This document shows positions 481 through 46,724 of a DNA stretch of 64,000 nucleotides, in pieces. Location of the stretch: the NCBI GenBank assembly GCA_021234155.1, contig JAJEKV010000003.1:22163569-22227568 (forward strand). Reading direction: 5' to 3'. Position 1 is the first letter of the stretch; each line of letters opens with the position of its first letter. The notes under the pieces were generated by a model. It was given only the letters and a program-made list of their open reading frames with translations, searched no databases and was not told where the DNA came from. The position numbers were made by a program, and so were the translations under genes. Source of the stretch: Isoetes taiwanensis (taxonomy: Eukaryota; Streptophyta; Lycopodiopsida; Isoetales; Isoetaceae).

Positions 481-1185
481 TTATCATCTTCCTTAGAAGT
501 AATGCCGTCCTCGGCATTAGGGTTAGATACAAATATAGGACATCACATTATGAAGGAAGGTAATATATTAAAACTTTAAAGTTTTAAAGAGTTTAAGCAA
601 CCGAGGTGCATTTCACGTGATTATCATAAGCAAAAGTTCAAGGACCGGAAGTCCAATATCAACATGAGGAAGAACAAAGCAAGGTCGTGTAGACAAAATA
701 AAACTGAAGAAGTCGGGCCATCGAACCCCCTCTCTAACATGGGCAGGTCACGTCTTGCTCAGCATCCACATCTTCCGCTTCCCGATATATAATTAGATTG
801 TGGTTGAAGGGACCACCCCCTATAATAAATAAAAGAAAATCCTATCTACCGGGGAACCTATCATGTCTATGGTTTGCAATTCATTCTATGGCATAGGGGG
901 ATGGTCAAGTTCCCATTATAGCCGCCATGGACATGGACCTATTAACTATATGCTCTCAAGCAAGTCGTATGGGAACATTGACAATTACCACGTCCTAGAG
1001 AACACAAAGGTGATCTCATCATACAGTAGCTATTATTATTTACGATGCATCTACCCCTCTAGAAACGAGGAATTGGCAATCAAGCTTCCAAGACAACCTT
1101 GGCCCAATCGGGTGATAGCATCGCAATGCGTGCGGACCTTGAGATTCCTATATCGACCCCGGATAGTGTACATCAAGGTCTTTCC
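481..1185 (-). mobile_element. Ty3/gypsy 3' internal fragment
   Basis: This corresponds to the region between the chromodomain and the PPT of the main element (compare 2,724-3,440) and to its inverted copies at 8,100-8,776 and 21,680-25,300. It includes shared landmarks such as the ATAATTAGATTGTGG block and the GATGCATCTACCCCTCTAGA block. Integrase is absent. At about 1,060-1,185 it grades into LTR sequence through an unnatural-looking mosaic, described separately. It is a remnant of a further copy of the same family lying downstream of the main element. Confidence 0.7.
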
Positions 1186-1330
1186 CTCACATGGCGACCA
1201 TCCCACCATGGCGGGGCCCTCCACTTAACCAAGGGCCATCTATAACATTTGTCCTTCTGGAGGACACGGAGGTTTCATAGGCCCGCCTTCAATGGGCTCC
1301 CTACGTATCTCCAAGCATGAGTACAAGGTT
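1060..1330. other. Interleaved mosaic of two gypsy segments (possible assembly artefact)
   Basis: Blocks of roughly 8-15 bases alternate between gypsy LTR sequence (as at 16,600-16,760) and chromodomain/3' internal sequence (as at 3,320-3,520). For example, LTR-like GGCCATCT and AGGACACGGAGG sit between chromodomain-like ACTTAACCAAG, TAACATTTG, TCCTTCTGG and ATAGGCCCG. Such fine alternation is not expected from recombination. It is typical of a consensus computed from two different sequences aligned together. Confidence 0.6.
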
Positions 1331-2723
1331 ATTTCACGGAGCATAAATCATATATAAATAACCACCACGAAGGGTGGCGCATCCATCCAAGTACCAGCGG
1401 CAAAGAATATGCATCTAAACCTAAGAAAACACCCCAAACCCCGTGTTCTACCCCCCGGACTCTCTGTGAGGATGGACGGACGGCTCGGTCTCAAGAGATC
1501 AGCAAACAGGGTATAACTTTGGCGTTGGCTATCGGCATAGAACATCGGCTAGGGTTGTCCACTCCATCCGCCCCTCCTGTGCACACTTTGCAGATGGGTC
1601 GATCCACGCTATGGCTTCGCTATAGCCTTCCATAGACGCAGACTCAAGGTATCACCCTTTGAGCCTACTCCAGGGTCCATGACGCCCGGTCCCGCCGAGG
1701 CAGGTCGAAGCGTCCCCTTCCGGGATCCGCGGTGGTTCCATGGGTGAGCTAGAGAATACGTGCCGCATCAGCGACCCCCGCATCCGTACCCGACTTACTC
1801 ACCCTAAATCCACTCAAAGTGCAAGATGCTCCATACGGATCACACCTCTACACCCAGGGAGTGTCAGACCCATACCCGGTCCTCTACGTGACCGGCTATC
1901 AGGTCTAGCCCACTGTAGGATTCTCAGGAGCCTTTTATATTCGTGCAAGACCCCACCCCCACTTCACCACTGCGTCCCTTCTCTGGTGCTAAGCCATATC
2001 ATAGCGTCTACGACCCGGTGGTCTCTTGTACACAGGCCGCATCTAATGGGAATATTACAGGGCTCTATCTAGGAACATACTATCATACATGAGCTCAGAG
2101 GTCTCTACACCCCCTTTAAACCCCTGTTTAATGGAAGCTACCGAAATACTTCATAGATACATCGATCATTCCTTAACAGAGCACCATTCATAACTGAAAT
2201 ATAATCCTACTTACCACCGAAGGGTTAATATCAACAAGGCAATCAGAAAAGAGTACTGAAGTACTATCCTACAATTCACAAGCTAAACTACTACTAACCC
2301 GTGTTTCGGCTGGAACCATTATCGTGGGGTGCTTCCATATTGCTGTAACTAGGGTGGCAGCGACAGCTAGTGGTTGTTCAGTGACTTGGGAAAATCAGCA
2401 ACAATCCTTGGGCGCTCAACTCCGTCGATTATAGTTGATATGTGGGTGGTGATCCACCTTAATGGTTCCAATTAGTATTCACCATGCTGGCCAATCGAGT
2501 TTGGCCAGGTGGCGCCTTCCCAAACCATAATTAGCTTAATTATCCTTCATAATTATTAATTCCTTAATTATAGGTTATTATCCTTAGTGATTAAGTTAGC
2601 ATAGCTAATTTGATCCCTTTTAGGTCAACCCCCTAAGTTACTATACCCCATGGTGGTGTATCTATACTGGGTGACGTATCAATGTATTTATATGTATACC
2701 GTATAAATACTTGGAACGTCACA
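1186..2723 (-). repeat. Ty3/gypsy 3' LTR of the main minus-strand element (truncated)
   Basis: On the minus strand this starts TGTGACGTTCC at 2,723, directly after the PPT, and runs to about 1,186, where it breaks in the mosaic zone. It therefore lacks the last 500 or so bases that are present at 16,067-16,590. It is highly similar to 20,102-21,679 and to the inverse of 8,777-10,328. An open frame at 1,740-2,072 on the opposite strand recurs in the other LTR copies but has no recognisable domain. Confidence 0.85.
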
Positions 2724-2737: not shown

Positions 2738-3380
2738 GAAGTAATGTTGTCCTCAGCATTAGGGTTAGATACAAATATAGGACATCACATTATGAAGGTA
2801 ATATATTAAAACTTTAAAGTTTTAAAAGAGTTTAAGCACCGAGGTGCATTTCACATGATTATCATAAGCAAAAAGTTCAAGGACCGAAGTCCAATATCAA
2901 CATGAGAGTAAGAACAAAGCAAGACGTGTAGACAAAATAAAACTGAAGAAGTCGGGCCATCAGCAACCCTCTAACATGGGCAGGTCACGTACTGCTCACT
3001 TTCCTGCACATGTCAGTATATCAGTATATATAATTAGATTGTGGTTGAAGGGACCACCCCCTATAATAAATAAAAGAAAATCCTATCTACCAGGGAACCT
3101 ATCATGTCTATGGTTTGCAATTCATTGCAGCATAGGGAATGGTCAAGTTCCCATTATAGCCGAGATGAACGCAGCCTTATTAACTATATGCTCTCCAAGC
3201 AAGTCGTGGTCAGGTCAACATTGACAGTACACCACGTCCTAGAGAACACAAAGGTGATCTCATCATCGGTAGCTATTATTATTTACGATGCATCTACCCC
3301 TCTAGAGTGCTACTGTCGGCAATCAAGCTTCCAAGCTTACCGCCGGCTGCGGGGTTGATAGCATCGTTGATGGTGCGGCC
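2738..3380 (-). mobile_element. Gypsy 3' untranslated internal region
   Basis: This non-coding stretch lies between the chromodomain stop and the PPT and is repeated at 8,174-8,763 (inverted) and at 21,693-22,102 plus 25,124-25,237. No convincing coding frame or RNA gene is seen. Confidence 0.75.
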
Positions 3381-6300
3381 TTAAGATTCTTGCATGAAGT
3401 CCGGATAGTGTTTCTCAAGGTCTATCTTCATCACCCAGGTAGCATCCTCAACTGGTAAGTGCTTCCACTTAACCAAGTATTGTAACATTTGAGTCCTTCT
3501 GGTTTGTTTATAGGCCCGATCTAGAAGAGCTTCATGCACTATCTCCAGCTGCTCCTCAGTCATTTCTAGGAGGGTCGGGGTATCCAAAACCTCCTCTGGA
3601 TCAGGGGTGTGTTGTTTCAGAAGACTCACGTGAAAGACCTTGTGGATCTTCAAGTGGGGTGGCAAATGCAAGCGATATGCCTGCTCTCCAAGGCGTTCAA
3701 TGATTTTGAGCGGCCCCATCGGGTGCCAACTTCTTACTGATTGCCAATCTTAAGCTTGGCTTGTTTTACCTTAATCTTAAGCCAAACCCGATTCACCCAC
3801 CTGAAAACGCATGGGGTTACAGGCTTATCGGCTACACTCTTTCGATGACTCGTCGCGCCTAATAAGTAACCACGAACTTCTTCGACCAGAGCTTGCATCT
3901 CCAAGAGGATTTGTTCAGAAACCTCCACTTTAGAAACGGGGTTATGCCATGTGTCAGAGTAAGACATTGATAACCATAATTTATCATAAAGGGAGACATT
4001 CGAAGACTCTGTTTTCATCTTTGTTGTAGTAGGCAAACTCGACCAGATAAATATAGTCAGCCCATTGTGATTGCTTACTCCACACATAACTTCTTAGCAT
4101 ATCCTCTATAATGCGATTGGTACGCTCAGTCTGACCATCTGTTTGAGGATGATATGCCGTACTCATAGCAAGCTTGGTCTGGATGGTGGCAAAGAAATCT
4201 TTCCAGAATGCGCTTACGAATTTAGGGTCCCTGTCGGATATAATAACTCGTGGCATTCCGTGTAATCTGAAGATCTCCTTGGCAAATAGCAGAGCAGTAT
4301 CGAAGGCTGTATCCGTGGTACATGGCAAGAAATAAGCCATTTTCGACAATTTGTCGACCACTACCATTAACGCATCATATCCACGGAGAGTACGTGGAAG
4401 GCCCACAATGAAATCCATGGTTATCACTTCCCATTTAGCGTTGGGCACATCCAGAGGTTGCAACTCGCCTGGAATCCTTAACTGCTCAGCTTTGGTTTGT
4501 TGACACACTTGACACTGCTTAATGTACTTGGCAATGTCCTTCTTCATCGAAGGCCAGAAATAACTGGAGCGGATCTTAAAGTAGGTTTTCATAAATCCTG
4601 CATGTCCAGCAATAGGGCTATTGTGTGTGTCATGGAGAATCAGCTTACGTACCCCTGAAGTCTCAGGTACACACAACTTATCCTTGTAATATAACAAGTT
4701 GCCTTCTTTCTTATACGAACGGAAGGCTTCACGCTCCTTATCCGTGCGGGCTTCCTTAGCCAAACTATTCCAAGCACCCCAGAACTCGGGATCCGTGGGT
4801 ACAGTCTGTTCTATCTGTTTCCCAAACTCACTGGTGAGTGTAGAAATTGCATTACAATGGGTTCGGGTGACCAAGGGATGGCGTGATAATGCATCCGCAA
4901 CCACATTGTGCTTTCCAGGTTTATACATAATCTCAAAATCATACTCCTCCAGAAATTCCATCCATCTCCTCTGATGGAGGTTGAGATTCGGCTGGGTGGA
5001 TAAATAACGGAGACTTTGATGGTCCGTATCCAACTGGAATCTTCTACCAAGAAGGTAGTGTCTCCATATCCGCAGGGCACGGACAACGGTTAACAATTCC
5101 TGATCATGAGTAGGATATCGCTGCTCGGTCTCGTTCATTTTCTTTGAGTCATAGGCAATAACCCTCCCCTCCTGCATTAGGACTCCACCGGTGGCAATCT
5201 TACTGGCATCCGTTGCCACTAATTTATTCTTCTCAGGATCGGGCAAAGTGAGGACTGGTGCTGACGTTAAGGCATCTTTAAGCTGCTGGAAACTTCCCTG
5301 AACCCTTGCCTTCCAGTGCTCCGTCCAATCCTTCACCTTCTCATGCTTTGTAAGATTTGTAAGAGGTGCTGCAACCTTTGCAAAATCCTTTACAAATTTC
5401 CGATAATATCCTGCTAACCCCAAGAAACTTTGGACCTCGGAAACATTACCGGGAATAGGCCATTCCCTTACTGCTTCTATCTTTGCCGGATCTGTAGCAA
5501 TTCCCTGTGCATAAATGACATGGCCCAAATAATCGACCTTCGAAGTGGCAAACTTGCACTTAGAGAACTTGGCAAAGAGCTGAGGACGTCTTTGCTTTTG
5601 TAGGGCCAATCTAAGATGTTGCTCATGCTGTTCCAGAGTCTTACTGTAGATGAGAATGTCGTCGAAGAAAATAACAACAAAATCATCCAAGTATTGTCGG
5701 AAGACATCATTCATCAATCGCATGAAGGTTGCTGGGGCATTAGTTAATCCAAAAGGCATAACGGTAAACTCATAATGCCCATATCTAGTGCGAAAAGCAG
5801 ATTTATGGATGTCCTCCTCTTTAATCCTTATCTGATGGTATCCGGAGCGTAGATCAATCTTTGAGAAATACTTGGCCCCTTGCAACTGGTCCATTAGATC
5901 ATCTGCTCTAGGCAAAGCATAGCGATTCTTGATGGTATGCTTGTTGAGTTGCCGATAATCAATACACATCCTCAAGGAGCCATCCTTTTTCTTAACAAAA
6001 AGAATAGGAGCGCCAAAGGGCGAAACACTAGGTCGAATGAAACCTAGGTTTAATAATTCCTGAAGTTGCTTCTTAAGCTCTGCCAACCCTGGGGGACTCA
6101 TACGATACGGGGCCTTACTGGTAGGCTTAGTACCTGGCTCTAAAGCTATCTCACATTCTACCCCTCTAAAAGGAGGAAGCTTCTGGATCTCATCCGGAAA
6201 AAGATCACCAAATTCTCGGAGAAGATTTGCAATCCCCCCTGGCAAGGTGTCGATTAGTTGCTTCTGCTTAGCATCTGACTCAATGGAGGCAAGCCTAATG

Positions 6301-7111
6301 ATGCAGAGGAGCTTTTCCTTGCGTATAGCTTTACCTAACTGCCGGATGGACATAGACTGCATAATAGGGTTGATTGGTTCACCTTTTATAGTCACGCGGG
6401 CTCCATTAGCTGCGTTGAAGGTAACTTCCCGTTTCTCGCAGTCTATGTTGGCCTTTGCAGATGCCAAGAATTCCATACCAACAATGAGGTCGTATTTGCC
6501 AATATCCATTAACTCTGCACCCAAAGCAACTGGTGCACCTGGCAACTGCATCTTGAGATTGATGCGACGGCCATGAGTATGTCTGACCTTACCGCTGGCT
6601 AAAGTGACAGGCTTCGGTCGGGACCTCAAGGTTTCAAGCTGTAATACCTGGGCCATTCTAGGAGAAGCAAAATTATGTGTACTCCCCCGTATCCATAAGA
6701 ATTACAAAAGGCTTACTGTCTACTTGACCTATGGTGGAAATGACAGCAGGCTGACTTTCAGCATTGCCAGTTTCTATAGCTGCAAGGATATGAGACGCAC
6801 CGTGAATATATTCGGGAGCCTCCTCCTCGACAGGTAGTGTTGACTCGAGGTCATCCCAATCGAGGTCGGCCATGGCCAGCTGGGCAGTCTGTGTGACATA
6901 AGGGCAATTCTGCATGAAGTGCCCGGGTCGCATACACCTGTAACATGCCTTATCTCGGCGGAGTTGTTCTCGAGCCTCTTTAAGAATGGACTGTAAGAGG
7001 TTCCGAACTTCTTCACCGACATTGTTTGGTTTATCGGGCGTGCTGAAGGTGACTTTCTTTTCCTGGCGGCCATAAGAGTTCTGTTGAGAGGGCCCCGGAC
7101 TTCCAGGCGAG
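3381..7111 (-). pseudogene. Ty3/gypsy chromovirus gag(3')-pol polyprotein, frameshifted
   Basis: Read on the minus strand this encodes, in order: a CCHC zinc knuckle ([14 protein letters not shown], near 6,925), an aspartic protease with the ILMDTG active site (near 6,690), reverse transcriptase with [11 protein letters not shown] in the catalytic position of YVDD (near 5,650), RNase H (TDAS...; ADALSRHPL), integrase with an HHCC finger (CQVCQQTK) and the DDE core ([29 protein letters not shown]), and a C-terminal chromodomain (YLVKWKHLPVEDATW, near 3,430). It makes the enzymes for reverse transcription and for chromatin-targeted integration. An extra G in the protease DTG region near 6,690 and indels between 3,720 and 4,090 break the frame, so it is not functional as written. 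Its 5' gag portion is displaced to 10,329-11,423 by an inverted insert. Confidence 0.95.
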
Positions 7112-8173
7112 TTGCAACCTCTGGATGTGCCCAACGCTAAATGAGAAGTGATAACCATGGATTTCATTGTGGGCCTTCCACGTACTCTCCGTGGATATGA
7201 TGCGTTAATGGTAGTGGTCGACAAATTGTCGAAAACGGAATGCCACGAGTTACTATATCCGACAGGGACCCTAAATTCGTAAGCGCATTCTGGAAAGATT
7301 TCTTTGCCACCATCCAGACCAAGCTTGCTATGAGTACGGCATATCATCCTCAAACAGATGGTCAGACAGAGCGTACCAATCGCATTATAGAGGATATGCT
7401 AAGAAGTTATGTGTGGAGTAAGCAATCACAATGGGCTGACTATATTTATCTGGTCGAGTTGCCTACAACAGCATGAAACAGGAGTCTTCCAGAATGTCTC
7501 CCTTTATGATAAATTATGGTTATCAATGTCTTACTCCAGACACATGGCATAACCCCGTTTCTAAAGTGGAGGTTTCTCAACAACTCCTCTTGGAAATGCA
7601 AGCTCTGGTCGAAGAAGTTCGTGGTTACTTATTAGCTGCACGCAGTCGTCAGAAGAGTGTAGCCGATAAGCACAGAACCCCACGCGTTTTCCAGGTGGGT
7701 GAATCTATTTGGCTTAAGATTAAGGTAAAACAAGCCAAGCTTAAGATTGGCAACTGTAAGAAGTTGGCACCCAGATGGGCTGGGCCGTTCAAAATCATTG
7801 AACGTCTTGGAGGCAGGCATATCGCTTGCATTTGCCACCCCACTTGAAGATCCACAAGGTCTTTCACGTGAGTCTTCTGAAACAACACACCCCTGATCCA
7901 GAGGAGGTTTTGGACACCCCGACCCTCCTAGAAATGACTGAGGAGCAACTGGAGATAGTGCCTGAAGCTCTTCTTGATCGGACCTATAAACAAACCAGAA
8001 GGACTCAAATGTTACAATACTTGGTTAAGTGGAAGCACTTACCAGTTGAGGATGCTACCTGGGTGATGAAGATAGACCTTGAGAAACACTATCCGGACTT
8101 CATGCAGGAATCTCAAGGCCGCACCATCAACGATGCTATCAACCCCCTGCGGCCGGTAAGCTTGGAAGCTTGA
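7112..8173 (+). pseudogene. Gypsy integrase C-terminal half plus chromodomain, inverted fragment
   Basis: Plus-strand integrase starts abruptly at the sequence CCAGGCGAG inside the region after the HHCC finger. It carries ISDRDPKF and [13 protein letters not shown] (7,262-7,390), the GPFKIIERL module and the chromodomain (YLVKWKHLPVEDATW near 8,020), ending at 8,173. It is joined head to head to minus-strand gag at 7,111. A frameshift near 7,470 separates the DDE core from the C-terminal part, and another lies near 7,810. The same join occurs in reverse at 26,419, so this fragment belongs to an inserted inverted segment that predates the large duplication. Confidence 0.9.
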
Positions 8174-8763
8174 TTGCCGACAGTAGCGCTCTAGAGGGGT
8201 AGATGCATCGTAAATAATAATAGCTACCGATGATGAGATCACCTTTGTGTTCTCTAGGACGTGGTGTACTGTCAATGTTGACCTGACCACGACTTGCTTG
8301 GAGAGCATATAGTTAATAGGCTGCGTTCATCTCGGCTATAATGGGAACTTGACCATTCCCTATGCTGCAATGAATTGCAAACCATAGACATGATAGGTTC
8401 CCTGGTAGATAGGATTTTCTTTTATTTATTATAGGGGGTGGTCCCTTCAACCACAATCTAATTATATATCTTGATATCTTGACATGTGCGGGCCGCGATT
8501 GCAAGATCGTGACCTGCCCATGTTAGAGGGTTGCTGATGGCCCGACTTCTTCAGTTTTATTTTGTCTACACGTCTTGCTTTGTTCTTACTCTCATGTTGA
8601 TATTGGACTTCGGTCCTTGAACTTTTTGCTTATGATAATCATGTGAAATGCACCTCGGTGCTTAAACTCTTTTAAAACTTTAAAGTTTTAATATATTACC
8701 TTCCTTCATAATGTGTGTCCTATATTTGTATCTAACCCTAATGCTGAGGACAGCATTACTCCT
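8174..8763 (+). mobile_element. Gypsy 3' untranslated internal region (inverted segment)
   Basis: This is the same sequence as the inverse of 2,738-3,380, lying between the chromodomain stop and the PPT. The site matching the Helitron 1 insertion in the other arm (near 8,318) is uninterrupted here. Confidence 0.75.
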
Positions 8764-8776
8764 AAGGAGGGGAGAA
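8764..8776 (+). promoter_or_regulatory. Polypurine tract (PPT)
   Basis: The 13-base purine run AAGGAGGGGAGAA sits directly before the LTR start TGTGACGTTCC at 8,777. This is the cleanest PPT in the window. Confidence 0.9.
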
Positions 8777-10328
8777 TGTGACGTTCCAAGTATTTATACG
8801 ATATACGTATAAATACATTGACACGTCACCCAGTATAGATACGCCACCATGGGGTATAGTAACCTAGGGGGTTGACCTAAAAGGGATTAAATTAGCTATG
8901 CTAACTTAATCACTAAGGATAATAACTTATAATTAAGGAATTAATAATTAAGGAATTAATAATTAAGAAGGATAATTAAGCTAATTATGGTTTGGGAAGG
9001 CGCCACCTGGCCAAACTCGATTGGCCAGCATGGTGAATACTAATTGGAACCATTAAGGTGGATCACCACCCCCATATCAACCATAATCGACGCAAGTCAC
9101 TGAACAACCACTAGCTGTCGCTGCCACCCTAGTTACAGCAATATGGAAGCACCCCACGATAATGGTTCCAGCCGAAACACGGGTTAGTAGTAGTTTAGCT
9201 TGTGAATTGTAGGATAGTACTTCAGTACTCTTTTCTGATTGCCTTGTTGATATTAACCCTTCGGTGGTAAGTAGGATTATATTTCAGTTATGAATGGTGC
9301 TCTGTTAAGGAATAATTGATGTATCTATGAAGTATTTCGGTAGCTTCCATTAAACAGGGGTTTAAAGGGGGGGGGTAGAGACCTCTGAGCTCATGTATGA
9401 TAGTATGTTCCTAGATAGAGCCCTGTAATATTCCCATTAGATGCGGCCTGTGTACAAGAGACCACCGGGTCGTAGATGCTATGGTATGGCTTAGCACTAG
9501 AGAAGGGACGCAGTGGTGAAGTGGGGGTGGGGTCTTGCACGAACATAAAAGGCTCCTGAGACTCCTACAGTGGGCTAGGCCTGATAGTCGGTCACGTAGA
9601 GGACCGGGTATGGGTCTGACACTCCCTGGGTGTAGAGGTGTGATCCGTATGGAGCATCTTGCACTTTGAGTAGATTTAGGGTGAGTAAGTCGGGTACGGA
9701 TGCGGGGGTCGCTGATGCGGCACGTATTCTCTAGCTCACCCATGGAACCACTGTGATCCTGGAAGGGGACGCTTCCCTGACTTGCCTCATCGGACCGGGG
9801 CGTCATGAACCCTGGAGTAGGCTCAAAGGGTGATACCTTGAGTCTGCGTCTCCAGAAGGCTATAGCGAAGCCATAGCGTGGATCAACCCATCTGCAAAGT
9901 GTGCACAGGAGGGGCGGATGGAGTGGACAACCCTAGCCGATGTTCTATGCCAGCCAACGCCAGGTTATGCCTCTGTCTGCTGATCTCTTGAGACCGAGCC
10001 GTCAGTCCATCCTCACAGGAGTCTGAGCCGGGGGTAGAACCTGGGGTTTGGGGTGTTTTCTTAGGTTTAGATGCATATTCTTTGCCGTTGGTACTTGGAT
10101 GGATGCGCCACCCTTCGTGGTGGTTATTTATATATGATTTATGCTGTGTGCTAACCTTGTACTCATGCTTCCGCGACGTAGGAGCCCATCGAAGGCGTGG
10201 GCTGAATGACATCTCCGTGTCCTTCACTCGAGCATCTCTACGTAGATGGCCCGGGTTAGACGGAGGGCCCTGCTCATGGTGGGATGGTCGCCATGTGAGG
10301 GGAAAGTTCCCGTATGTATACGGCCGGG
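8777..10328 (+). repeat. Ty3/gypsy LTR, truncated at its 3' end, in inverted segment
   Basis: It begins with TGTGACGTTCC after the PPT and follows the LTR for about 1.55 kb, then stops within CGGCCG at about 10,328, where minus-strand gag begins. The terminal 500 or so bases of the LTR (as at 16,067-16,590) are missing. The first 55 bases form an imperfect palindrome containing TGACGT, a TATAAATAC box and CACGTCAC. The long open frame on the opposite strand (9,411-9,806) is shared by other LTR copies and shows no domain. Confidence 0.88.
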
Positions 10329-11423
10329 GGCAATTCTGCATGAAGTGCCCGGGTCGCATACACCTGTAACATGCCTTATCTCGGCGGAATTGTTCTCGAG
10401 CCTCTTTAGGAATGGACTGTAAGAGATTCCGAACTTCTTTACCGACATTGTTTGGTTTATCGGGCGTGCTGAAGGTGACTTTCTTTTCCTGGCGGCCATA
10501 AGAGTTCTGTTGAGAGGGCCCCGGACTTGGCGAGCGGGGTTTGTAAGGTGTGGGCGGCCGTGGCTGCGAGTAAGGAGCAGGACGCGTATACTGGTTCTTT
10601 GGTGTGTCCTCTTCGAGGCTCAATGCCTTAGCCTCAGCCTCTGCAACTGATTTCGGGTCGATGGCCATAACCATTCGTTTAATTGATGGGGCCAACCCTT
10701 CAATGTAGCCCTCCACCGCCCTCTTTTCATTCATGCCTGTACGTACAGCCTCAAGTGCATAAACTCATCAGTGTAGGCCTGAACCGACATACCCTTCTGC
10801 TCTAACCTGTAGAAGGTCTGGATCTGTTGGCATTTGTGTGTATGAGGCACATAATGCGACTTAAAAGCTTTGGCAAACTTTTTGAACTTGCACCTGCTTC
10901 TGTCCAGATGCTTGGCTCTGGCATAGCCCTTCCACCAAATACGGGCAGCTCCTGTAAGGTTTGTTGTGGCAACCTTTCCTGTATCCTTTTCTGTCATGCC
11001 ATAGGATTTCCCAAACTCCTTCATCTTGTCCAACCAGGACTCTGCATTCAGTCCGCCTCTAGATTTCCCATCGAACTGGGCCAGTTTTCTATTCTTCCAT
11101 ATACTAGTTATGGCTGTATCAACCGTCTTGCGGTACTCCTTATCGCGGCGCTTTGCATGGTCACCAGCTGACACCGACGACTCACAGTACACAGAAGTGG
11201 CTGATTGTGAGGAGGTGGCGCTATCCCTAGAAGAACTCCGACGACGTGTAGGACGGGCCCTTCTCTGTGCAGATACATGACTGGTTTCAGGTGGAGATGG
11301 CTGCTGTGTAGGTGGACTTGGCGGTAGCGGAGGTAACTCCGGTTCGTCTTCTTGTATATGCTGTGGTGGAGTGGCGTGCAACACATGAGCTTGTAACTCG
11401 ACTAATTGTCTCTTCATTAACAT
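10329..11423 (-). pseudogene. Ty3/gypsy gag (capsid and zinc knuckle), frameshifted
   Basis: On the minus strand the frame opens at ATG 11,423 (MLMKRQLVELQ). It has a proline- and arginine/serine-rich N-terminus, then a Retrotrans_gag-type capsid domain (SWLDKMKEFGKSYGM, GAARIWWKGYAR, FKSHYVPHTHKCQQIQTFY), and ends at the CCHC zinc knuckle ([14 protein letters not shown] near 10,345). Gag packages the element RNA. Compared with the copy at 19,002, one base is missing near 10,738 (GTACGTACAGG against GTACGTACCAGG), which breaks the frame after the capsid. Beyond the knuckle the gene is cut by LTR sequence and resumes at 7,111. The frame is open for some 50 bases upstream of the ATG, starting near an AG that looks like a splice acceptor. 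Confidence 0.93.
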
Positions 11424-11925
11424 AAGTTCATGTTCAGGTGTTAGTCTACTGGCATTTGAGGGCGTCTGCCAGGCGGCATTGCGTGCACCGTCTATATCGA
11501 GGATAAAAAGATATAAGCAGAATTATAGTAACATAAAGTCTCACAAAAATATCATTGCGGAGAGGGTAGAGAGAGAATACAAGAAAAAAAAATACGATGG
11601 GCAAGATCCTTATTACAAGGAAAAACAGTCATTTCATTAAGTTTCAGTACATTGGTAGTGACAAAAGTTGATGCAAGGATATAATACAAGGACAGACATT
11701 ATACATCGGAGATTTGAAGTTCAACTCACATAGAGCATAAAAAAAACAAAACTGAGGAGACCGGGCCTAGGGGTTTGCAAATGGGTACAAGATTGAGTAG
11801 CGAACACTTTCACGTACAGCCCTAACGAGCTTGTAACGTGCCCAGGCCTGGACGATAACAGGTTGATAGTCGTATGTGGGGCTTATAATAAGAAGGTTAA
11901 AAAGCCTCCTTAGTGCATAGAAAAG
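11424..11925 (-). mobile_element. Spacer between accessory ORF and gag
   Basis: This AT-rich, non-coding stretch is duplicated at 18,498-19,001 with few differences. Just upstream of gag on the minus strand, the pyrimidine-rich TATCTTTTTATCCTCGATATAG resembles a 3' splice site, so gag may be translated from a spliced message. No domain-bearing frame is present. Confidence 0.6.
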
Positions 11926-12258
11926 CTACCACAAATGATCGTTGGCATCCTCGAAAGCTTCATGTCTGGACATGTCCCAATAGTCCCATGTGCGGCGAAG
12001 AGTTTGCTTCAGGTCTTCGAAAGCCCGTTCTCTGAGAATGTTAACTACCTCCATCCCCTTGGCTGGATCATAGGGCTCCCCTAGTGGTGCGGGTTCCTCT
12101 ACCTCGTAACCTTCGTCCCATTCGGGGTACTCCCCATACCTTTGGCCATAATCCTGGTCGGGCGGCCCTGGATCATCCCTCCTTATCTGATCGGTAATTC
12201 TCTCTTCATATTCTTCGAGTGTCTCGTCTGCAAGATGATAGAAATGAATATAGAACAT
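11926..12258 (-). CDS. Accessory ORF3 of gypsy element: acidic 110-residue protein, unknown family
   Basis: The frame runs from ATG at 12,258 to the stop at 11,926. The product is strongly acidic and rich in tyrosine, tryptophan and proline (DETLEEYEERITDQIRRDD, RRTWDYWDMSRHEAF), with no signal peptide, membrane segment or familiar domain. It lies between the 466-residue accessory gene and gag, on the element's sense strand. The inverted copy at 18,165-18,497 keeps the whole frame open with only a handful of substitutions, which argues for a real gene in the parent element. TTTCTATCATCTTGCAG just inside the start looks like a 3' splice site, so this may be an internal exon with the true start further upstream. 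I do not recognise the family. Confidence 0.65.
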   Translation of the reverse strand: MFYIHFYHLADETLEEYEERITDQIRRDDPGPPDQDYGQRYGEYPEWDEGYEVEEPAPLGEPYDPAKGMEVVNILRERAFEDLKQTLRRTWDYWDMSRHEAFEDANDHLW

Positions 12259-12453
12259 TGAACAATTTCGTTATACTCTAAACTCCAATAGATAGAAGAA
12301 CGCATCATGGAAGAGAACAATTTTAATTGTATTCATTGATACAATAATCACAATTGATAAGAAGATGGTATATCATAACTATAAAATGGCTAAAGAAAAT
12401 GCCAAACCAAAATGCTACAACTATACGCAATACAGAATGCGAAATACAATTAA

Positions 12454-13854
12454 CTAAGAGCTAGGTCCCCCCTCTTCATTCGTAGGCCGAGTGGGTGGTG
12501 GCGGCGGTCGGTGTCGTAGCAGAGTCACCCCTGGGTCTACTGTGGCAGCCGCAATGGAGGCAACCTCCGCCGGATAAGCAACCGCCAATGGGGCCGCCGT
12601 AAGGAGCTTCATACTCATACAGGGTGCAATATCTTGTCCCAGGGCCGTCAAGGCAAGATCCCGTCGTACGAGTACATAAGTGAACGTACGATAGGGAAGC
12701 TTCTTGTGCCCGGCCAATGTGGAAAGAGCACGGAGGGTCCACCATGAAGCTTCGGCCTCCGGCCCTAGGTCCCGGGCTATAAAAAGAACTTGCCCCTGTC
12801 GAAAAGCTGATAAGAAGAAGCGAGTAAGGTGGTTTCCCAATACCTTTCCTTGCGGGGTCTCTGACGTGGCCACCTCCTTATCCAAGTCCATAGGGACTTC
12901 TTTTTCCTTGAGTTCTTGCTGCTCTTCCTTCAAATGAGCAGGATTATGGTATAAATCCTCTCCCTCCTCATCCGAATCGGAGGGAACCTCGACCATATTA
13001 ATATTTGGAACATGGGGTCCCATAGCCATAAAGGCTTCCGGTGAAGGCTGAGAGGCCGGATCCCGCATCACTAGTTCCCGAAGTCGTAGCAAAGTCTCAG
13101 CTGGCTCTAAGGTCTCCTGGTGGAATTGGAGTAGCTGTTGTACCTCCTGAGGAAGCTCAATAGGAGCGAAGTCGATGAAGTCATCCATACAATACTCCGC
13201 TAATTCATAGAGTACATGGTCCTTGCGCCGGCGCTTAAACCCGGCCACCATGTGATAGGTCCAGATGATATCATCCAAGAGAAGATATTCTTGCCCTTGG
13301 TGATACACAACTGGAAGGGCGTCTAGCCCTGACAAGTGTGCAGCTTGTTCCCGGCGTGGTGGCATCTCCTCTGCCAACTGCTTCCAACGGGCGAAGTCAC
13401 CCATGCCTATATGCTCATCTTCTTCTTCCTCAAAAGGCTCAGGAAGTTTGCCTTTCTCTGCCGGCAAAGTCTCATCCTCAACATATTGGTCCATGAGGAT
13501 GGCTAGGGCAAAGGCAACTTCGAGATATTGTCGCCCCTGATGCTGCACAACTGGCAACTGCTTGCCCCATCTAAGCTTCCCTTTCAGCACATCATACGCG
13601 TGGGTGTCACCCCCTAGCATATCCCGGACTACATCCCGTTCTAGATACAACTGGAGAGGATCCCCAAGAGGAATACACAAAGGAAGCATCTCCTCTGTAT
13701 AAAACTCTAAGAATCCGGCATAATCTGGGTGCCGCTGCATATTAGTGATGAGATCAAGGCGCTGACATAGCAAGGGCCGTAACAGGTCGAAGGGCACTTG
13801 CGGATCCCAATGCTCTCCATCCTGGTACCATGCAAGTAGGTCGGTGGCAGCCAT
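12454..13854 (-). CDS. Accessory ORF2 of gypsy element: 466-residue protein, unknown family
   Basis: The ATG at 13,854 has a good context (GCGCCCATGG); the frame extends a little upstream but without an ATG. The stop is TAG at 12,454. The N-terminal half contains two similar segments, KQLPVVQHQGRQYLEVAFAL (about residue 110) and DALPVVYHQGQEYLLLDDII (about residue 190), suggesting an internally duplicated fold. The middle is acidic (PSDSDEEGEDLYHN) and the C-terminus is proline-rich (RHRPPPPPTRPTNEEGG). No transmembrane segment or known catalytic motif is visible. It lies between the PBS and gag on the sense strand. Being open for over 1.4 kb among decayed genes suggests recent selection or low age. 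The function is unknown. Confidence 0.75.
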   Translation of the reverse strand: MAATDLLAWYQDGEHWDPQVPFDLLRPLLCQRLDLITNMQRHPDYAGFLEFYTEEMLPLCIPLGDPLQLYLERDVVRDMLGGDTHAYDVLKGKLRWGKQLPVVQHQGRQYLEVAFALAILMDQYVEDETLPAEKGKLPEPFEEEEDEHIGMGDFARWKQLAEEMPPRREQAAHLSGLDALPVVYHQGQEYLLLDDIIWTYHMVAGFKRRRKDHVLYELAEYCMDDFIDFAPIELPQEVQQLLQFHQETLEPAETLLRLRELVMRDPASQPSPEAFMAMGPHVPNINMVEVPSDSDEEGEDLYHNPAHLKEEQQELKEKEVPMDLDKEVATSETPQGKVLGNHLTRFFLSAFRQGQVLFIARDLGPEAEASWWTLRALSTLAGHKKLPYRTFTYVLVRRDLALTALGQDIAPCMSMKLLTAAPLAVAYPAEVASIAAATVDPGVTLLRHRPPPPPTRPTNEEGGPSS

Positions 13855-14044
13855 GGGCGCTGGAAGGGAGGAGGAAGGAAGCAAAATAGATATAACAAAT
13901 GAAATGAAACTTTGAAGATCCTTTTTAACCCCTTTTAGTTATGCTGACGTCAGCATTTTCGTACTTAATACAAAATAGAAGGTAAGTTTTTTTTTTATTA
14001 AATATCAAAAAAATATTTACAATACAATTGTCCTGCAAAATTTT
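13855..14044 (-). mobile_element. AT-rich spacer between accessory ORF1 and ORF2
   Basis: A short non-coding gap with a T9 run and the TGACGTCA palindrome (near 13,945), a bZIP-type ACGT site. No other feature is seen. Confidence 0.5.
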
Positions 14045-14689
14045 CTAAGGATGCTCTCCCCGAATCCTGCAGGCGAGGGCTAAATCCTTTGGCATTATGG
14101 TGACCCTCTTTGCGTGGATAGCGCAAAGATTGGCATCACCAAATAGTGCCACCAGGTAGGCCTCCGCAGCCTCTTGGAGCGCCAAGATGCCAAAAGTCTG
14201 GAAGCGGAGGTCGGTTTTAAACTCTTGGGCGATCTCCCGAACCAACCTCTGAAAGGGGAGCTTCCATATCAGAAGTTGCGTGGACTTCTGAAACTTACGG
14301 ATCTCCCGTAAGGCCACAGTGCCGGGTCGGAACCGGTGGGGTTTCCTTTGTGGAGCAGGGTTGGTAGGCGCCCCCCTCTGTCGTGGTACCGTCTTGGCCC
14401 CAACAACTGGTCGAGAAGCATCCACCCGCTCCTGCCTCCGACTGGAGCTCGCTTTCTTCCCAAAAGCTCTGACAGTCTTTAGCTTTTCCTTGTACTGGCT
14501 GCCGGACTTTCGGGCTACGGCTTTCCGCCGGTGCTTAACGGTTGTATGCTCCGTTTGGGTTGGGCCATGCCCACTCCCCGATCCCCCATTCCCCTGCCGA
14601 TCCGGCTGCTCTTCCCGGGCCTTCGCCTCCTTTTCCCTTTGGATCCTTTCCTGCTCCTCTCTGAACTCCCGAGCTCTCCTGAGGTCTTC
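14045..14689 (-). CDS. Histone H3-fold domain encoded by accessory ORF1 of gypsy element
   Basis: This continues the reading frame of 14,690-15,304 after an in-frame TAG. First comes a basic linker of about 115 residues, charged and coiled at first ([19 protein letters not shown]), then Arg/Lys-rich. It is followed by an almost complete histone H3 core: aN ([19 protein letters not shown]), a1 ([20 protein letters not shown]), a2 ([34 protein letters not shown]) and a3 ([10 protein letters not shown]), then a stop at 14,045. The core is nearly colinear with canonical H3, without the longer loop 1 of centromeric CENH3. F at the position of residue 41 is as in plant H3.1. The normal H3 N-terminal tail is missing and replaced. 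Changes include LIRKLP to LIWKLP and LARRIRG to LACRIRG. If made, it could enter or mimic a nucleosome; this is inference. Confidence 0.85.
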
Positions 14690-15304
14690 CTAAACATCAG
14701 CGTACAGTCGTGTTGTACTGCGGTGAAGGAGCTCAGCGTGGTACCGGTCAGGTCGCTGGTTCATATCAATCTGGACCGTCGTTAGGTAATCCAGACTGAT
14801 ATTAGGAATCACTCCCCACATGAAGCTCTGAGAAGCTTCATGCCATGTATATGGGGGAATCTCGATGGCCCTGCCATCAATGATGGCGACTCCATCTCCA
14901 AGGTACCTGTACTCTCGACCTCGAGCCGCTGTATCGGCTCGTTCTATCTCTCTGCGGTCATCCTCCCTGGCCAAGTTCCGAATGCGGTCGGTCTCTGCTC
15001 TTATGTCCTCCTCTTCAGTGTGGCCTTCGCATTCGGAAGGGTAGAACTTAACCAACATCATGACCAAGTCAGGTTGCTCGGCCATGGTGTAAGGAAGCTG
15101 GCGGAGATTGAGCCTGACCAAAAACGGCTCCGAGTAATGGTAAATGGGATAGGGGATCCTATCATTATTCTCAAATCTGTTTACCAACTCGTTCAAAAGT
15201 ATATCAATGAAGACAGGGTCAGTAGCCATATGCCGGGCGATCAAAGTATAAATTTCCACTATGGTGAGGGTAGTGGGGTCCACGGTGCTCTTGGTGTTGG
15301 CCAT
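14690..15304 (-). CDS. Accessory ORF1 of gypsy element, N-terminal part (204 residues)
   Basis: It starts at ATG 15,304 in a strong context and ends at TAG 14,690. The same frame then stays open to 14,045, giving about 419 codons if the stop is read through or is a mutation. The N-terminal 90 residues look helical (TLTIVEIYTLIARHMATD, VFIDILLNELVNRFENND). A charged stretch follows (EEEDIRAETDRIRNLAREDD), then a compact segment (RAIEIPPYTWHEASQSFMWG). No known domain is recognised. It is the first gene after the PBS, about 750 bases downstream. The in-frame continuation into a basic linker and H3 fold suggests one ancestral protein. Confidence 0.72.
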   Translation of the reverse strand: MANTKSTVDPTTLTIVEIYTLIARHMATDPVFIDILLNELVNRFENNDRIPYPIYHYSEPFLVRLNLRQLPYTMAEQPDLVMMLVKFYPSECEGHTEEEDIRAETDRIRNLAREDDRREIERADTAARGREYRYLGDGVAIIDGRAIEIPPYTWHEASQSFMWGVIPNISLDYLTTVQIDMNQRPDRYHAELLHRSTTRLYADV

Positions 15305-16052
15305 ACTATGGCGCTGAGGTCTAGGTAGGGCGCTTGCGGCTAGGGAAGCGGTAGTGAAGGCGCTAGGGTTAACGAAGAACCAGGGTGGAAGAACAAGGTC
15401 AGGTCCGGCGGCTATGGCAGGCGTCGGCTCTAGCGGCCGAAGGCGCTTTAAGGCAGGGAGGAAGCAAAAAGTTAACGGCCTTTAACCCCTAAAAAGTTTT
15501 AAAAGTTTGCTTATTATTTTTTTTTTAAAAAAAACATTATACGGCAGAAGAATACGCGCAAAAATACGGTCGGGCGCCGACGGCATTCTACGCGCTCCCA
15601 CCGCGACTGGGGGTCGTCGAAAAGCAAGCGGCACCCGGGTTGACTTTCGGGCCCGGGTTGACTCGCGACGGTACAGTCGGGCACCGACAGCATTTTAGGC
15701 TCTCCCACCGCGACTGCAAGGCGACAAAATTCAAGCGGCGCCCGAGTTGACTTTCGGGCCTTTCCGTGACCATTTTTCTGCCAGCGACGACTGTCCTAGG
15801 GTATTTGGGTACGCCCGATCCAATAGAACCACTTTCTCCTTCATCTAAACTACCTACAAAAATTTATAACCCCTCCAAACTTGGGGCCTCCAGTTGCCCT
15901 AAACGTATTAAGACTTACACCCTACTACATCAACCTAGCACAGAACCAAACATCAAAGAGCTAAACAATCATACTAGCTTAACTTCCACCTAACCACCGA
16001 ACTAACGAGTTAGGGTTTGGCCAGTGCTATGATTTCGAGCAATCGAAATCAC
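15305..16052 (-). mobile_element. 5' leader of gypsy element between PBS and ORF1
   Basis: This untranslated leader is GC-rich around 15,560-15,770, where a block recurs (separate entry). An A/T homopolymer lies near 15,515-15,535. No coding frame with recognisable content is present. Confidence 0.6.
15567..15762. repeat. Two-copy direct repeat in element leader
   Basis: A unit of about 110-120 bases (GTCGGGC[GA]CCGAC[GA]GCATT ... CTCCCACCGCGACTG ... CAAGCGGC[AG]CCCG[GA]GTTGACTTTCGGGCC) occurs twice, starting near 15,567 and 15,686. Being GC-rich, it may fold in RNA and could be part of a packaging or leader structure. Confidence 0.75.
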
Positions 16053-16065
16053 GGCTCTGATACCA
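16053..16065 (-). promoter_or_regulatory. Primer-binding site (initiator tRNA-Met type)
   Basis: On the minus strand the bases TGGTATCAGAGCC follow the LTR end (CGTCACA) after one base. This is the standard plant PBS, complementary to the 3' end of initiator tRNA-Met. It fixes the orientation of the main element as minus and the 5' LTR boundary at 16,067. Confidence 0.93.
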
Positions 16066-16066
16066 C

Positions 16067-18020
16067 TGTGACGCTCCCTGAATATATACGACCCCGGGGG
16101 ATTCACCTCTATTATAGGTATATATGCCATGTGCGTTCCTTAGGTTGCCAAAAAACCCATTGTATACGACAATTCCATATGAAAAACCCTTTGTATACGA
16201 CTACATTATTTGTAAAAGAATGCAGCCCATATCATATAATTACTTGCCTAAAACTCTTTTACTTGACAACCCCTTCCATACATATACGATATCTCTATTA
16301 TTTTATATATATGTAATATATATTATCATAGTCATATCATATTATCACAGAATCCCCAACAGTAGAAGCTCACCAAAAATGACGGACCCTTACAGTATGA
16401 ATACAAATCGAACAATGGCGCCACCACACTCCCTCTGGTATCTGTACGACATTCAACCTATAAAAACCTTATATTTTTCTTATGTATACGGTACCAGAGA
16501 GGCAATAAAAAAACCCATTTGGTGCACTCACATGTTTCATACCCCATAATCTAGGTGAACCCCCCGGGTATACGACCCTCGGCCGTATACATACGGGGAC
16601 TTTCCCCTCACATGGCGACCATCCCACCATGAGCAGGGCCCTCCGTCTAACCTGGGCCATCTACGTAGAGATGCTCGAGTGAAGGACACGGAGGTGTCAT
16701 TCGGCTCACGCCTTCGATGGGCTCCTACGTCGCGGAAGCATGAGTACAAGGTTAGCACATAGCATAAATCATATATAAATAACCACCACGAAGGGTGGCG
16801 CATCCATCCAAGTACCAACGGCAAAGAATATGCATCTAAACCTAAGAAAACACCCCAAACCCCAGGTTCTACCCCGGCTCAGACTCCTGTGAGGATGGAC
16901 TGACGGCTCGGTCTCAAGAGATCGTGAGATGAGGGTGTAACCCGGCGTTAGTGGCATAGAAAATCGGCTAGGGTTGTCCACTCCATCCGCCCCTCCTGTG
17001 CACACTTTGCAGATGGGTCGATCCACGCTATGGGTTCGCTATAGCCTTCCGGAGACGCAGACTCAAGGTATCACCCTTTGAGCCTACTCCAGGGTTCATG
17101 ACGCCCCGGTCCGATGAGACAGGTCAGGGAAGCGTCCCCTTCCAGGGATCCAAGTGGTTCCATGGGTGAGCTAGAGAATACGTGCGCGCATCGGCGACCC
17201 TTGCATCCGTGCATTCACTTACTCACCCTAAATCTACTCAAAGTGCAAGATGCTCCATACGGATCACACCTCTACACCCGGGGAGTGTCGGACCCATACC
17301 GGTCCTCTACGTGACCCGGGCTATCGCCTAGTCCACTTTGTAGGAGTCTCAGGAGCCTTTTATGTTCGTGCAAGACCCCACCCCCACTTCACCACTGCGT
17401 CGCTTCTCTGGTGCTAAGCCATACCATAGCGTCTACGACCCGGTGGTCTCTTGTACACATGCCGCATCTAATGGAAACATTACGAGCTCTATCTAGGAAC
17501 ATACTATCATACATGAGCTCAAAGGTCTCTACCCCCTTTAAACCCCTTTTTAATGGAAGCTACCGAAATACTTCATAGATACATCGATCATTCCTTAACA
17601 GAGCACCATTCATAACTGAAATATAATCCTACTTACCACCGAAGGGTTAATATCAACAAGGCAATCAGAAAAGAGTACTGAAATACTATCTTACAATTCA
17701 CAAGCTAAACTACTACTAACCCATGTTTCGGCTGGAACCATTATCGTGGGGTGCTTCCATATTGCTGTAACTAGGGTGGCAGCGACAGCTAGTCGTTGTT
17801 CAGTGACTTGGGGAAATCAGCAACAATCCTTGGGCGCTCAACTGCGTCGATTATGGTTGATATGGGGGTGGTGATCCACCTTAATGGTTCCAATTAGTAT
17901 TCACCATGCTGGCCAATCGAGTTTGGCCAGGTAGCGCCTTCCCAAACCATAATTAGCTTAATTATCCTTCTTAATTATTAATTCCTTAATTATAGGTTAT
18001 TATCCTTAGTGATTAAGTTA
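16067..18020 (-). repeat. Ty3/gypsy 5' LTR of main element (nearly complete)
   Basis: On the minus strand it ends GGAGCGTCACA at 16,067, next to the PBS. It contains the 500 or so terminal bases missing from the other copies, with repeated GTATACGA-like motifs at 16,080-16,600. It lacks about 120 bases at its own 5' end, where at 18,021 it joins the inverted right arm through a GCAT microhomology. Combining copies gives a full LTR of about 2.1 kb, long for a plant gypsy element. Confidence 0.9.
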
Positions 18021-18164
18021 GCATTTTCTTTAGCCATTTTATAGTTATGATATACCATCTTCTTATCAATTGTGATTATTGTATCAATGAATACAATTAA
18101 AATTGTTCTCTTCCATGATGCGTTCTTATATATATTGGAGTTTAGAGTATAACGAAATTGTTCA
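18021..18164 (+). mobile_element. Start of right inverted arm
   Basis: From 18,021 the sequence is the reverse complement of 12,401 downward (CATTTTCTTTAGCCATTTTATAG...). It is the inner edge of the large inverted duplication; the 5.6 kb between the arms (12,402-18,020) is unique. Confidence 0.85.
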
Positions 18165-18497
18165 ATGTTCTATATTCATTTCTATCGTCTTGCAGACGAG
18201 ACACTCGAAGAATATGAAGAGAGAATTACCGATCAGATAAGGAGGGATGATCCATGGCCGCCCGACCAGGATTATGGCCAAAGGTATGGGGAGTACCCCG
18301 AATGGGACGAAGGTTACGAGGTAGGGGAACCCGCACCACCAGGGGAGCCCTATGATCCAGCCAAGGGGATGGAGGTAGTTAACATTCTCAGAGAACGGGC
18401 TTTCGAAGACCTGAAGCAAACTCTTCGCCGCACATGGGACTATTGGGACATGTCCAGGCATGAAGCTTTCGAGGATGCCAACGATCATTTGTGGTAG
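18165..18497 (+). CDS. Accessory ORF3 copy (110-residue acidic protein)
   Basis: This is the inverted duplicate of 11,926-12,258, same length and fully open. It differs at a few residues (for example FYRLADET for FYHLADET, DDPWPPDQD for DDPGPPDQD, EVGEPAPPG for EVEEPAPLG). It keeps the putative splice acceptor TCTTGCAG|ACGAG. The duplicate lies in the sense orientation upstream of gag at 19,002. The function is unknown. Confidence 0.62.
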   Translation: MFYIHFYRLADETLEEYEERITDQIRRDDPWPPDQDYGQRYGEYPEWDEGYEVGEPAPPGEPYDPAKGMEVVNILRERAFEDLKQTLRRTWDYWDMSRHEAFEDANDHLW

Positions 18498-19001
18498 CTT
18501 TTCTATGCACTAAGGAGGCTTTTTAACCTTCTTATTATAAGCCCCACATACGACTATCAACCTGTTATCGTCCAGGCCTGGGCACGTTACAAGCTCGTTA
18601 GGGCTGTACGTGAAAGTGTTCGCTACTCAATCTTGTACCCATTTGCGAACCCCTAGGCCCGGTCTCCTCAGTTTTGTTTTTTTTATGCTCTATGTGAGTT
18701 GAACTTCAAATCTCCGATGTATAATGTCTGTCCTTGTATTATATCCTTGCATCAACTTTTGTCACTACCAATGTACTGAAACTTAATGAAATGACTGTTT
18801 TTCCTTGTAATAAGGATCTTGCCCATCGTATTTTTTTTTTCCTTGTATTCTCTCTCTACCCTCTCCGCAATGATATTTTTGTGAGACTTTATGTTACTAT
18901 AATTCTGCTTATATCTTTTTATCCTCGATATAGACGGTGCACGCAATGCCGCCTGGCAGACGCCCTCAAATGCCAGTAGACTAACACCTGAACAGGAACT
19001 T
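18498..19001 (+). mobile_element. Spacer between accessory ORF3 and gag (right arm)
   Basis: This is the inverted copy of 11,424-11,925, non-coding, with long T runs (18,675-18,685, 18,830-18,841). The pyrimidine-rich acceptor-like ATCCTCGATATAG before gag is conserved here (near 18,934). Confidence 0.6.
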
Positions 19002-20101
19002 ATGTTAATGAAGAGACAATTAGTCGAGTTACAAGCTCATGTGTTGCACGCCACTCCACCACAGCATATACAAGAAGACGGACCGGAGTTACCTCTGCTA
19101 CCGCCAAGTCCACCTACACAGCAGCCATCTCCACCTGAAACCAGTCCTGTACCTGCACAGAGAAGGGCCCGTCCTAAACGTCATCGGAGTTCTTCTAGGG
19201 ATAGCGCCACCTCCTCACAATCAGCCACTTCTGTGTCCTGTGAGTCGTCGGTGTCAGCTGGTGACCATGCAAAGCGCCGCGATAAGAAGTCTGCAAAGGC
19301 GGTTGATCTGACCATAACTAGTATATGGAAGAATAGAAAACTGGCCCAGTTCGATGGGAAATCTAGAGGCGGACTGAATGCAGAGTCCTGGTTGGACGAG
19401 ATGAAGGAGTTTGGGAAATCCTATGGCATGACAGAAAAGGATACAGGAAAGGTTGCCACAACAAACCTTACAGGAGCTGCCCGTATTTGGTGGAAGGGCT
19501 ATGCCAGAGCCAAGCATCTGGACAGAAGCAGGTGCAAGTTCAAAAAGTTTGCCAAAGCTTTTAAGTCGCATTATGTGCCTCGTACGCACAAATGCCAACA
19601 GATCCAGACCTTCTACAGGTTAGAGCAGAAGGGTATGTTGGTTCAGGCCTACACTGATGAGTTTATGCGCTTGAGGCTGTACGTACCAGGCATGAATGAA
19701 AAGAGGGCGGTGGAGGGCTACATTGAAGGGTTGGCCCCATCAATTAAACGAATGGTTAAGGCCATCGACCCGAAATCAGTTGCAGAGGCTGAGGCTAAGG
19801 CATTGAGCCTCGAAGAGGACACACCAAAGAACCAGTATCTGCGTCCTGCTCCTTACTCACAGCCACGGCCGCCCACACCTTACAAACCCCGCTCGCCAAG
19901 TCCGGGGCCCTCTCAGCAGAACTCTTATGGCCGCCAGGAAAAGAAAGTCACCTTCAGCACGCCCGATAAACCAAACAATGTCGGTAAAGAAGTTCGGAAT
20001 CTCTTACAGTCCATTTCTAAAGAGGCTCGAGAACAACTCCGCCGAGATAAGGCATGTTACAGGTGTATGCGACCCGGGCACTTCATGCAGAATTGCCTCC
20101 G
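19002..20101 (+). pseudogene. Ty3/gypsy gag, intact through the zinc knuckle, then truncated
   Basis: ATG at 19,002 opens a gag frame that, unlike the left copy, stays open through the capsid (SWLDEMKEFGKSYGM, RIWWKGYARAKHL, GYIEGLAPSIKRM) and the basic linker to the zinc knuckle ([14 protein letters not shown], near 20,060). At 20,101 the coding sequence is cut within the codon after the knuckle and runs into inverted LTR sequence (reading on as RPYTYGNF...), so the protease and pol parts are detached. They resume at 26,420 after repeating about 195 bases of this gag 3' end. Confidence 0.92.
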
Positions 20102-46627: not shown

Positions 46628-46724
46628 CATTAATTCCACAAACAATTTATGTTTCACATATACTTAAGGGTAATGTTCCCATTAAGATAAAATAGACTAT
46701 AACATTCTAGCTAGTTCAATAAGG

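Follow-up and report, generated by a model that had tools for sequence, protein, structure and literature searches.

Capture of histone H3 coding sequences by mobile elements has been described in fungi, where hAT DNA transposons carry a captured H3 termed H3L (excerpts of PMC3538342 and PMC6710886). The hosts named in these excerpts are Pyrenophora tritici-repentis (PMC3538342) and members of the Mycosphaerellaceae, such as Pseudocercospora fijiensis (PMC6710886). In plants, the giant Gypsy elements of Phalaenopsis carry AlkB/2-ODD domains, represented by 38 and 23 consensus sequences in two species and associated with in vitro activity (excerpts of PMC9289625). The same work screened 121 angiosperm genomes in windows of 5 kb on either side of the reverse transcriptase (RT), and the findings named in its excerpted text include no histone domain (PMC9289625). 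Extra ORFs, including the eORF-5'F class, are common and highly heterogeneous in the OTA elements such as Ogre; most OTA elements possess eORFs, some of which are 5' and forward, and the prominent eORF domains are the plant mobile domain, Transposase_28 and Athila ORF-1 (excerpts of PMC6317226). Among the matches listed in the open-licence literature, none concerned an LTR retrotransposon that carries H3, in agreement with the original prediction, made from the sequence alone, according to which no such gypsy family is known. The word 'histone' is absent from the text of PMC3726574 and PMC6431247, and the available passages of PMC12786077 and PMC3203195 contain no LTR retrotransposon with H3. 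The capture of H3 by a transposable element is thus not new in itself, and host gene capture by a retrotransposon is a known kind of event; the unusual arrangement in an LTR retrotransposon is new as far as searched.

The locus described here lies in a window of 64,000 nt (the whole stretch of DNA that was analysed) from Isoetes taiwanensis (GCA_021234155.1, contig JAJEKV010000003.1, positions 22,163,569-22,227,568, forward strand), in which a histone H3 core is encoded within a Ty3/gypsy chromovirus. As in the fungal hAT elements, a mobile element would here have taken up the coding sequence of an H3; the H3L of P. tritici-repentis further resembles it in that the core has diverged, the N-terminal tail contains insertions and an ORF of unknown function lies alongside (excerpts of PMC3538342). 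However, the fungal H3L is a separate ORF in DNA transposons with terminal inverted repeats (excerpts of PMC3538342 and PMC6710886), whereas in the present element, an LTR retrotransposon, H3 forms the C-terminal part of a chimeric frame. Insertion of a hAT-type H3L element into the leader was considered and rejected, since no hAT domain was found in the scanned ORFs and none of the seven inverted repeats found in 12200-16120 pairs the ends of the region. Like the orchid AlkB elements, it is a large plant Ty3/gypsy element with an acquired host domain in an additional ORF, the domain in the orchids being different from H3 (excerpts of PMC9289625). The H3 core lies about 8 kb from the RT, or roughly 4.7 kb if an antisense fragment described below is discounted, which is borderline for 5-kb screening windows. 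It shares with the OTA eORFs an additional frame outside gag-pol, a heterogeneous origin and, as in some of them, a 5' and forward position; non-chromoviruses, in contrast, are without a chromodomain, and this element has one (excerpts of PMC6317226). The chromoviruses with a type II chromodomain resemble it in the chromodomain following the integrase and in a tRNA-Met-type PBS, and differ in that the present element has two extra long frames between the PBS and gag, one of them with H3 (excerpts of PMC6317226).

On the minus strand, which holds all the features given below unless stated otherwise, the element reads LTR, PBS, H3 frame (ORF1), ORF2, gag, pol, chromodomain, polypurine tract and LTR, from about 18022 to about 1150 (approximately 16.9 kb). 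This anatomy, its order and its strand are direct observations: from the PBS to the chromodomain all parts lie on one strand, the antisense fragment excepted. The gag-pol part is present as a large inverted duplication, 3796-12405 against 18018-29726, with the segments 97-99% identical in self-alignment and a spacer of 5.6 kb that contains the H3 region. The inverted second copy (18021-29726) carries the same antisense fragment and, in addition, a 3-kb Helitron-like insertion. It is truncated at 18021, before the H3 region, and therefore speaks neither for nor against H3 in other copies; the H3 region is represented by one copy in the window. The H3-bearing copy is mosaic and defective, with a stop in ORF1, a broken gag frame and gag separated from pol by the antisense fragment, and is dead.

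The 5' LTR (16067..18022) is without its first ~120 bp; the inverted copy starts at this edge, 18022. Over 16577-18020 the LTR shares 94.5-96% identity with the LTR pieces 20097-21557 and 8899-10329. The last 510 bp (16067-16576; searched as 16067-16568) are unmatched elsewhere in the window, since the other LTR pieces end near the same LTR position (20096, 10330 and ~1150). The 3' end of this LTR is GCGTCACA, and adjoining it is the PBS (16054..16065), an exact TGGTATCAGAGC, presumably complementary to the 3' end of tRNA-iMet and the sole match in the window at up to 1 mismatch. In shuffled controls 0.32 matches were expected and at least one occurred in 26 of 100 shuffles, so that the motif alone is not significant; the assignment is made because the motif stands one base after the LTR-type end. 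As the 510 bp are unmatched, the PBS is linked to the LTR family by contiguity and by the agreement of the ends, TGTGACG...CGTCACA. The LTR family starts with TGTGACGTTCC, preceded by a polypurine tract, at 21679, 8777 and 2723. The start of the 3' LTR (1180..2723) is truncated near 1150-1180; here the tract ends just above 2723, and GGGAGGGAGAA is followed by TGTGACGTTCC. The element thus has LTRs with a PBS and a polypurine tract, both LTRs of the H3-bearing copy being truncated at one end. The 3' and 5' LTRs are 92.5% identical over 1403 aligned bases, with a K2P distance of 0.079; the distance to the LTR pieces of the antisense fragments is 0.038-0.040. From this divergence, the insertion of the element is not a fresh one.

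The gag region (9883..11423) is frame-broken, with a capsid match above the cut-off (PF03732, E=8.6e-12) and weak zinc-knuckle matches below theirs (zf-CCHC_2, E=0.00033; zf-CCHC, E=0.0013). Between gag and pol lies the 3.2-kb antisense fragment (7103..10327), comprising an integrase end, a chromodomain on the plus strand (7473-8199) and a partial LTR, and flanked in self-alignment by a 200-bp duplication of gag. The pol region (3984..6656) encodes the protease end, RT, RNase H and integrase (PF00078, E=6.1e-37; PF17917, E=5.8e-31; PF17921, E=1.7e-20; RVP_2, E=6.3e-5), and the integrase core PF00665 falls below its 32.6-bit cut-off (E=2.9e-7, 31.1 bits). The order PR-RT-RH-INT, by which the Ty3/gypsy chromoviruses are recognised, was found with Pfam in both 3987-6656 and 26271-29306; in both pol copies PF00665 is below the cut-off and the integrase zinc domain PF17921 above it. 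The integrase C-terminus and chromodomain (3297..3716) are 96% identical over 140 residues to the copy at 25241-25969, in which Chromo PF00385 was detected after the integrase (E=1.4e-8). In comparison with HP1, the middle aromatic residue of the cage alone is kept, the first and the third being I and L. The type II chromodomain has the same pattern (excerpts of PMC6317226). No relatives of pol were found in the viral-contig scan, and neither ARAGORN nor Rfam at the gathering threshold gave a match in the window.

Other repeats were also observed in the window. Two Helitron-like copies of 3.0 kb each (22103-25123 and 42850-45888), one of them inside the inverted retrotransposon copy, are 97.9% identical, start with TC, end in a GC-rich hairpin and CTAG, and are flanked by A and T; a TC start, a GC-rich hairpin with a CTAG end and insertion between A and T are the hallmarks of Helitrons. 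ORFs resembling, as judged by eye, a Ty1/copia polyprotein in pieces occur at 37888-41627 on the minus strand, and over 46000-53000 diverged direct repeats are densely arrayed, with open frames rich in pyrimidines.

ORF1 (14045..15304) is a chimeric frame of 419 codons with the H3 core at its end. The original prediction of a reading frame ending in an H3 core holds for the position of the core at the C-terminus; the frame itself is not open, as 204 codons are followed by an in-frame TAG at codon 205 (14692-14690) and then by 214 codons. The H3 core (14048..14344, 99 codons) matches the Pfam Histone family PF00125 with E=1.2e-39 and 135.8 bits (cut-off 26.4), by which a chance similarity to H3 is rejected. 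Its best solved relative is H3.3 (7ux9, E=1.3e-51), and the best 60 of the 176 PDB rows all carry H3 names. The homology to H3 is thus established, and the core lies in sense between the PBS and gag (from 11423) of an element with a chromodomain (3716-3297) on the same strand, as predicted originally. Over its 99 codons the core is co-linear with H3, without stops, frameshifts or introns, and ends LACRIRGE before a clean stop. In comparison with reference sequences, it is identical to plant H3.3 at 82/99 positions and likewise to H3.1 at 82/99.

The replacement of the H3 tail by a basic linker and an unrelated N-terminal region, also part of the original prediction, was borne out. The linker (14345..14689; 115 residues) is charged to basic (29 K/R against 15 D/E among the first 112 residues) and replaces most of the tail. 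In the phmmer alignment recognisable H3 sequence starts at about residue 22, the earlier tail residues being without counterpart, and in the part of the linker aligned to H3 residues ~22-37 the positions of K27 and K36 are occupied by Arg. The encoded sequence has a histone fold with H3-specific sequence and lacks the conserved modifiable N-terminal tail. The N-terminal region (14693..15304; 204 residues) has no family above the cut-off: the first search gave no Pfam row at E<=0.1, at E<=10 the sole row was DUF3541 (E=0.1, 11.8 bits against a cut-off of 28.2), the best PDB chain had E=0.43, and there was no PHROG match and no relative among the viral contigs. Viral-contig scans with the H3 ORF gave no relatives, and a DNA search with it against plasmids gave no match. 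In a scan of genome contigs, nine loci were found, all in metagenomic (MAG) bins labelled bacterial and with eukaryote-like H3 sequence, probably as a result of binning contamination; intron-like gaps were seen in the H3 sequences of two of them (L007 and L008).

Downstream of the stop in ORF1 there is no Met until residue 404 of 419, so that the H3 part of this copy cannot be made without read-through. The GTG start of the H3 ORF was a mechanical choice of the ORF lister, and autonomous translation from it is rejected on the same ground. The longest sense run in 14045-15400 is 236 codons, a length reached in 1 of 2000 first-order Markov sequences, and the opposite strand has a run of 180 codons (control mean 107). 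AlphaFold2 models built from single sequences had a mean pLDDT of 39.8 (ORF1) and 33.5 (ORF2), values too low to permit a search by fold. Between the PBS and ORF1, the leader contains a GC-rich tandem repeat of 100 bp, 79% identical (15554-15760).

With respect to its type, the H3 core has T31 and L90, which we take to be H3.3-like diagnostic residues, and F41, which we take to be of the H3.1 type. Because F41 is H3.1-like and the identity to H3.1 and H3.3 is equal, an origin from H3.3 is not settled. Plant H3.3 genes usually contain introns. A CENH3 identity was rejected: CENH3 has a longer loop 1 and a diverged core, and the present core aligns to H3.3 without gaps at 82/99 identity. Residues 86-89 of H3 form the stretch that separates the H3 variants for their chaperones, and 4 of the 17 changes in the core fall there, a cluster noticed post hoc. 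Most of the residues that contact DNA or form the H3-H3' interface are presumably kept, and R63W, R128C and R134H alter positions that are invariant in the reference H3 set.

The constraint on the core was assessed by neutral simulation. Starting from H3.3, the observed conservativeness of the changes was reached in 3.2-4.5% of 4000 runs (P=0.03-0.045), and from H3.1 in 14-17% (P=0.14-0.17, not significant). Between 41 and 45% of the neutral runs remained free of stops, and the open state of the H3 core is therefore no evidence of selection. Changes at naturally variable H3 positions, counted on the six full-length rows of the contig loci with or without two further H3 sequences, number 7 of 17 with the eight references (P=0.058) and 6 of 17 with the six (P=0.070), a marginal enrichment. 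An earlier count (P=0.005) was dropped, as it included partial and intron-spanning rows (L002, L007, L008 and L009). The evidence for constraint on the core, as far as can be judged from the sequence, is weak.

Next to the H3 frame and in the same orientation lies ORF2 (12454..13854), intact over 466 codons from its ATG (13854) to the stop. The stop-free run in which it lies, 494 codons, is longer than any in 2000 first-order Markov sequences of this stretch, where the longest run was 218. ORF2 matched no Pfam or PHROG family at E<=10 and had no relatives among the viral contigs; one PDB row was returned (E=0.37). An internal repeat (13283-13314 and 13523-13554), in which LPVV.HQG..YL occurs twice and the DNA is 81% identical over 32 nt, suggests a repeated domain without a named family. 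Just before the ATG, a pyrimidine-rich run ending in CAG (13855-13900) looks like a splice acceptor, and a similar CTTCC-rich run is present upstream of ORF1. A duplicated upstream cassette before the two frames was dropped as a finding and is a hint only, since local similarity reached P=0.022 in one of four comparisons (0.63, 0.23 and 0.28 in the others), uncorrected. A plant eORF-5'F is defined as a forward frame in the 5' part that stays open for 250 codons or more (excerpts of PMC6317226); ORF2, with 466 codons, reaches this length, and ORF1, divided into 204 and 214 codons around its stop, falls short of it in this copy. Beyond ORF2, a small ORF of 110 codons (11926..12258) is 96% identical to 18165-18497 of the inverted copy.

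The reading preferred here, to which a probability of about one half may be given, is that a host H3 was captured through RNA into the 5' accessory region of a chromovirus and that the chimera acts as an H3 variant if it is made. The capture of the host coding sequence would most likely have proceeded through a spliced mRNA, by template switching inside the particle, an RNA route that we infer. The H3 core would then have come to lie at the C-terminus of an accessory frame between the PBS and gag, joined by the linker to the unrelated region of 204 residues, and the chimera would presumably be made in active relatives of the present copy. If made, it would most likely be an element-encoded H3 variant, the histone fold of which could pair with host H4 and enter nucleosomes or the chaperone pathway, with the N-terminal domain in place of the tail, on which the host sets its silencing modifications (Arg at the aligned K27 and K36). 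In support of the capture are the order of the parts on one strand with LTR pieces of one family, 92.5% identical, on both sides, the intron-free H3 core and the sense frames that are open beyond chance. The H3.3-like T31 and L90, the retention of most DNA-contacting and interface residues, the cluster of changes at residues 86-89 and the conservativeness of the changes in the simulation from H3.3 count in the same direction. Against it stand the single copy, the in-frame stop, the broken gag and the split gag-pol, as well as the unmatched 510 bp of LTR beside the PBS, the non-significant simulation from H3.1, the marginal enrichment at variable sites, the three substitutions at invariant positions and the H3.1-type F41; the H3 core has a GC3 of 0.65 where pol has 0.47, which would also fit a late arrival.

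In the main rival reading, an H3 retrocopy was trapped once, in a single element or sublineage or in the leader after integration, and has since been decaying neutrally without a function. This is a real possibility: one copy is known, the stop at codon 205 interrupts the frame, the selection tests are weak or not significant, and some 50 nt past the H3 stop there is a run resembling poly(A), ATTTAATAAAAAAAAAAC, such as a retrocopy might leave. However, the core is not a stand-alone pseudogene, being in frame with 204 and 115 upstream codons but for one stop and followed by a clean stop, and a second long intact ORF accompanies it in the same orientation. Moreover, among the seven inverted and six direct repeat families found in 12200-16120, a search that left out target-site duplications of a few bases, none pairs the ends of the region.

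It is improbable that the H3 frame and ORF2 derive from the host or from a different element and that rearrangement fused them to a broken chromovirus. The locus is highly rearranged, with inverted copies, an antisense fragment in gag-pol and the Helitron-like insertion; the inverted copy begins where the H3/ORF2 region ends (~12402/18021), and the LTR end beside the PBS is the part without a counterpart, near which the other LTR pieces stop. Yet a single breakpoint in the inverted copy accounts for the shared edge, 16577-18020 belongs to the same LTR family as the LTRs that follow the chromodomain of this element, and one strand carries everything from the PBS to the chromodomain apart from the antisense fragment. 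That the H3 domain serves as a packaging or nucleic-acid-binding module for the RNA or cDNA of the element rather than as a chromatin factor is very improbable, for although a basic linker adjoins the fold and the frame lies upstream of gag, the best-kept parts are presumably those for H4 pairing and DNA wrapping, which RNA packaging does not require, and gag itself shows a zinc-knuckle-like match, albeit below the curated cut-off.

To return to the capture of a host H3 into the 5' accessory region, the further proposal that the chromovirus lineage encodes its own tail-less H3 variant with a foreign N-terminal domain, which would pair with host H4 and be placed on the chromatin of the element or keep silencing marks off, is rather unlikely at present. 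The original suggestion that an H3-like protein steers integration or aids escape from silencing is not supported. Chromoviruses are held to read chromatin through the chromodomain of their integrase, and if the H3-variant reading were true, one element would both read chromatin, with the chromodomain, and write it, with the histone. By supplying a nucleosome component, such a family would, in that case, have a direct means of shaping the chromatin in which it resides. Even a non-functional capture would extend the transduplication of H3 from fungal DNA transposons to LTR retrotransposons.
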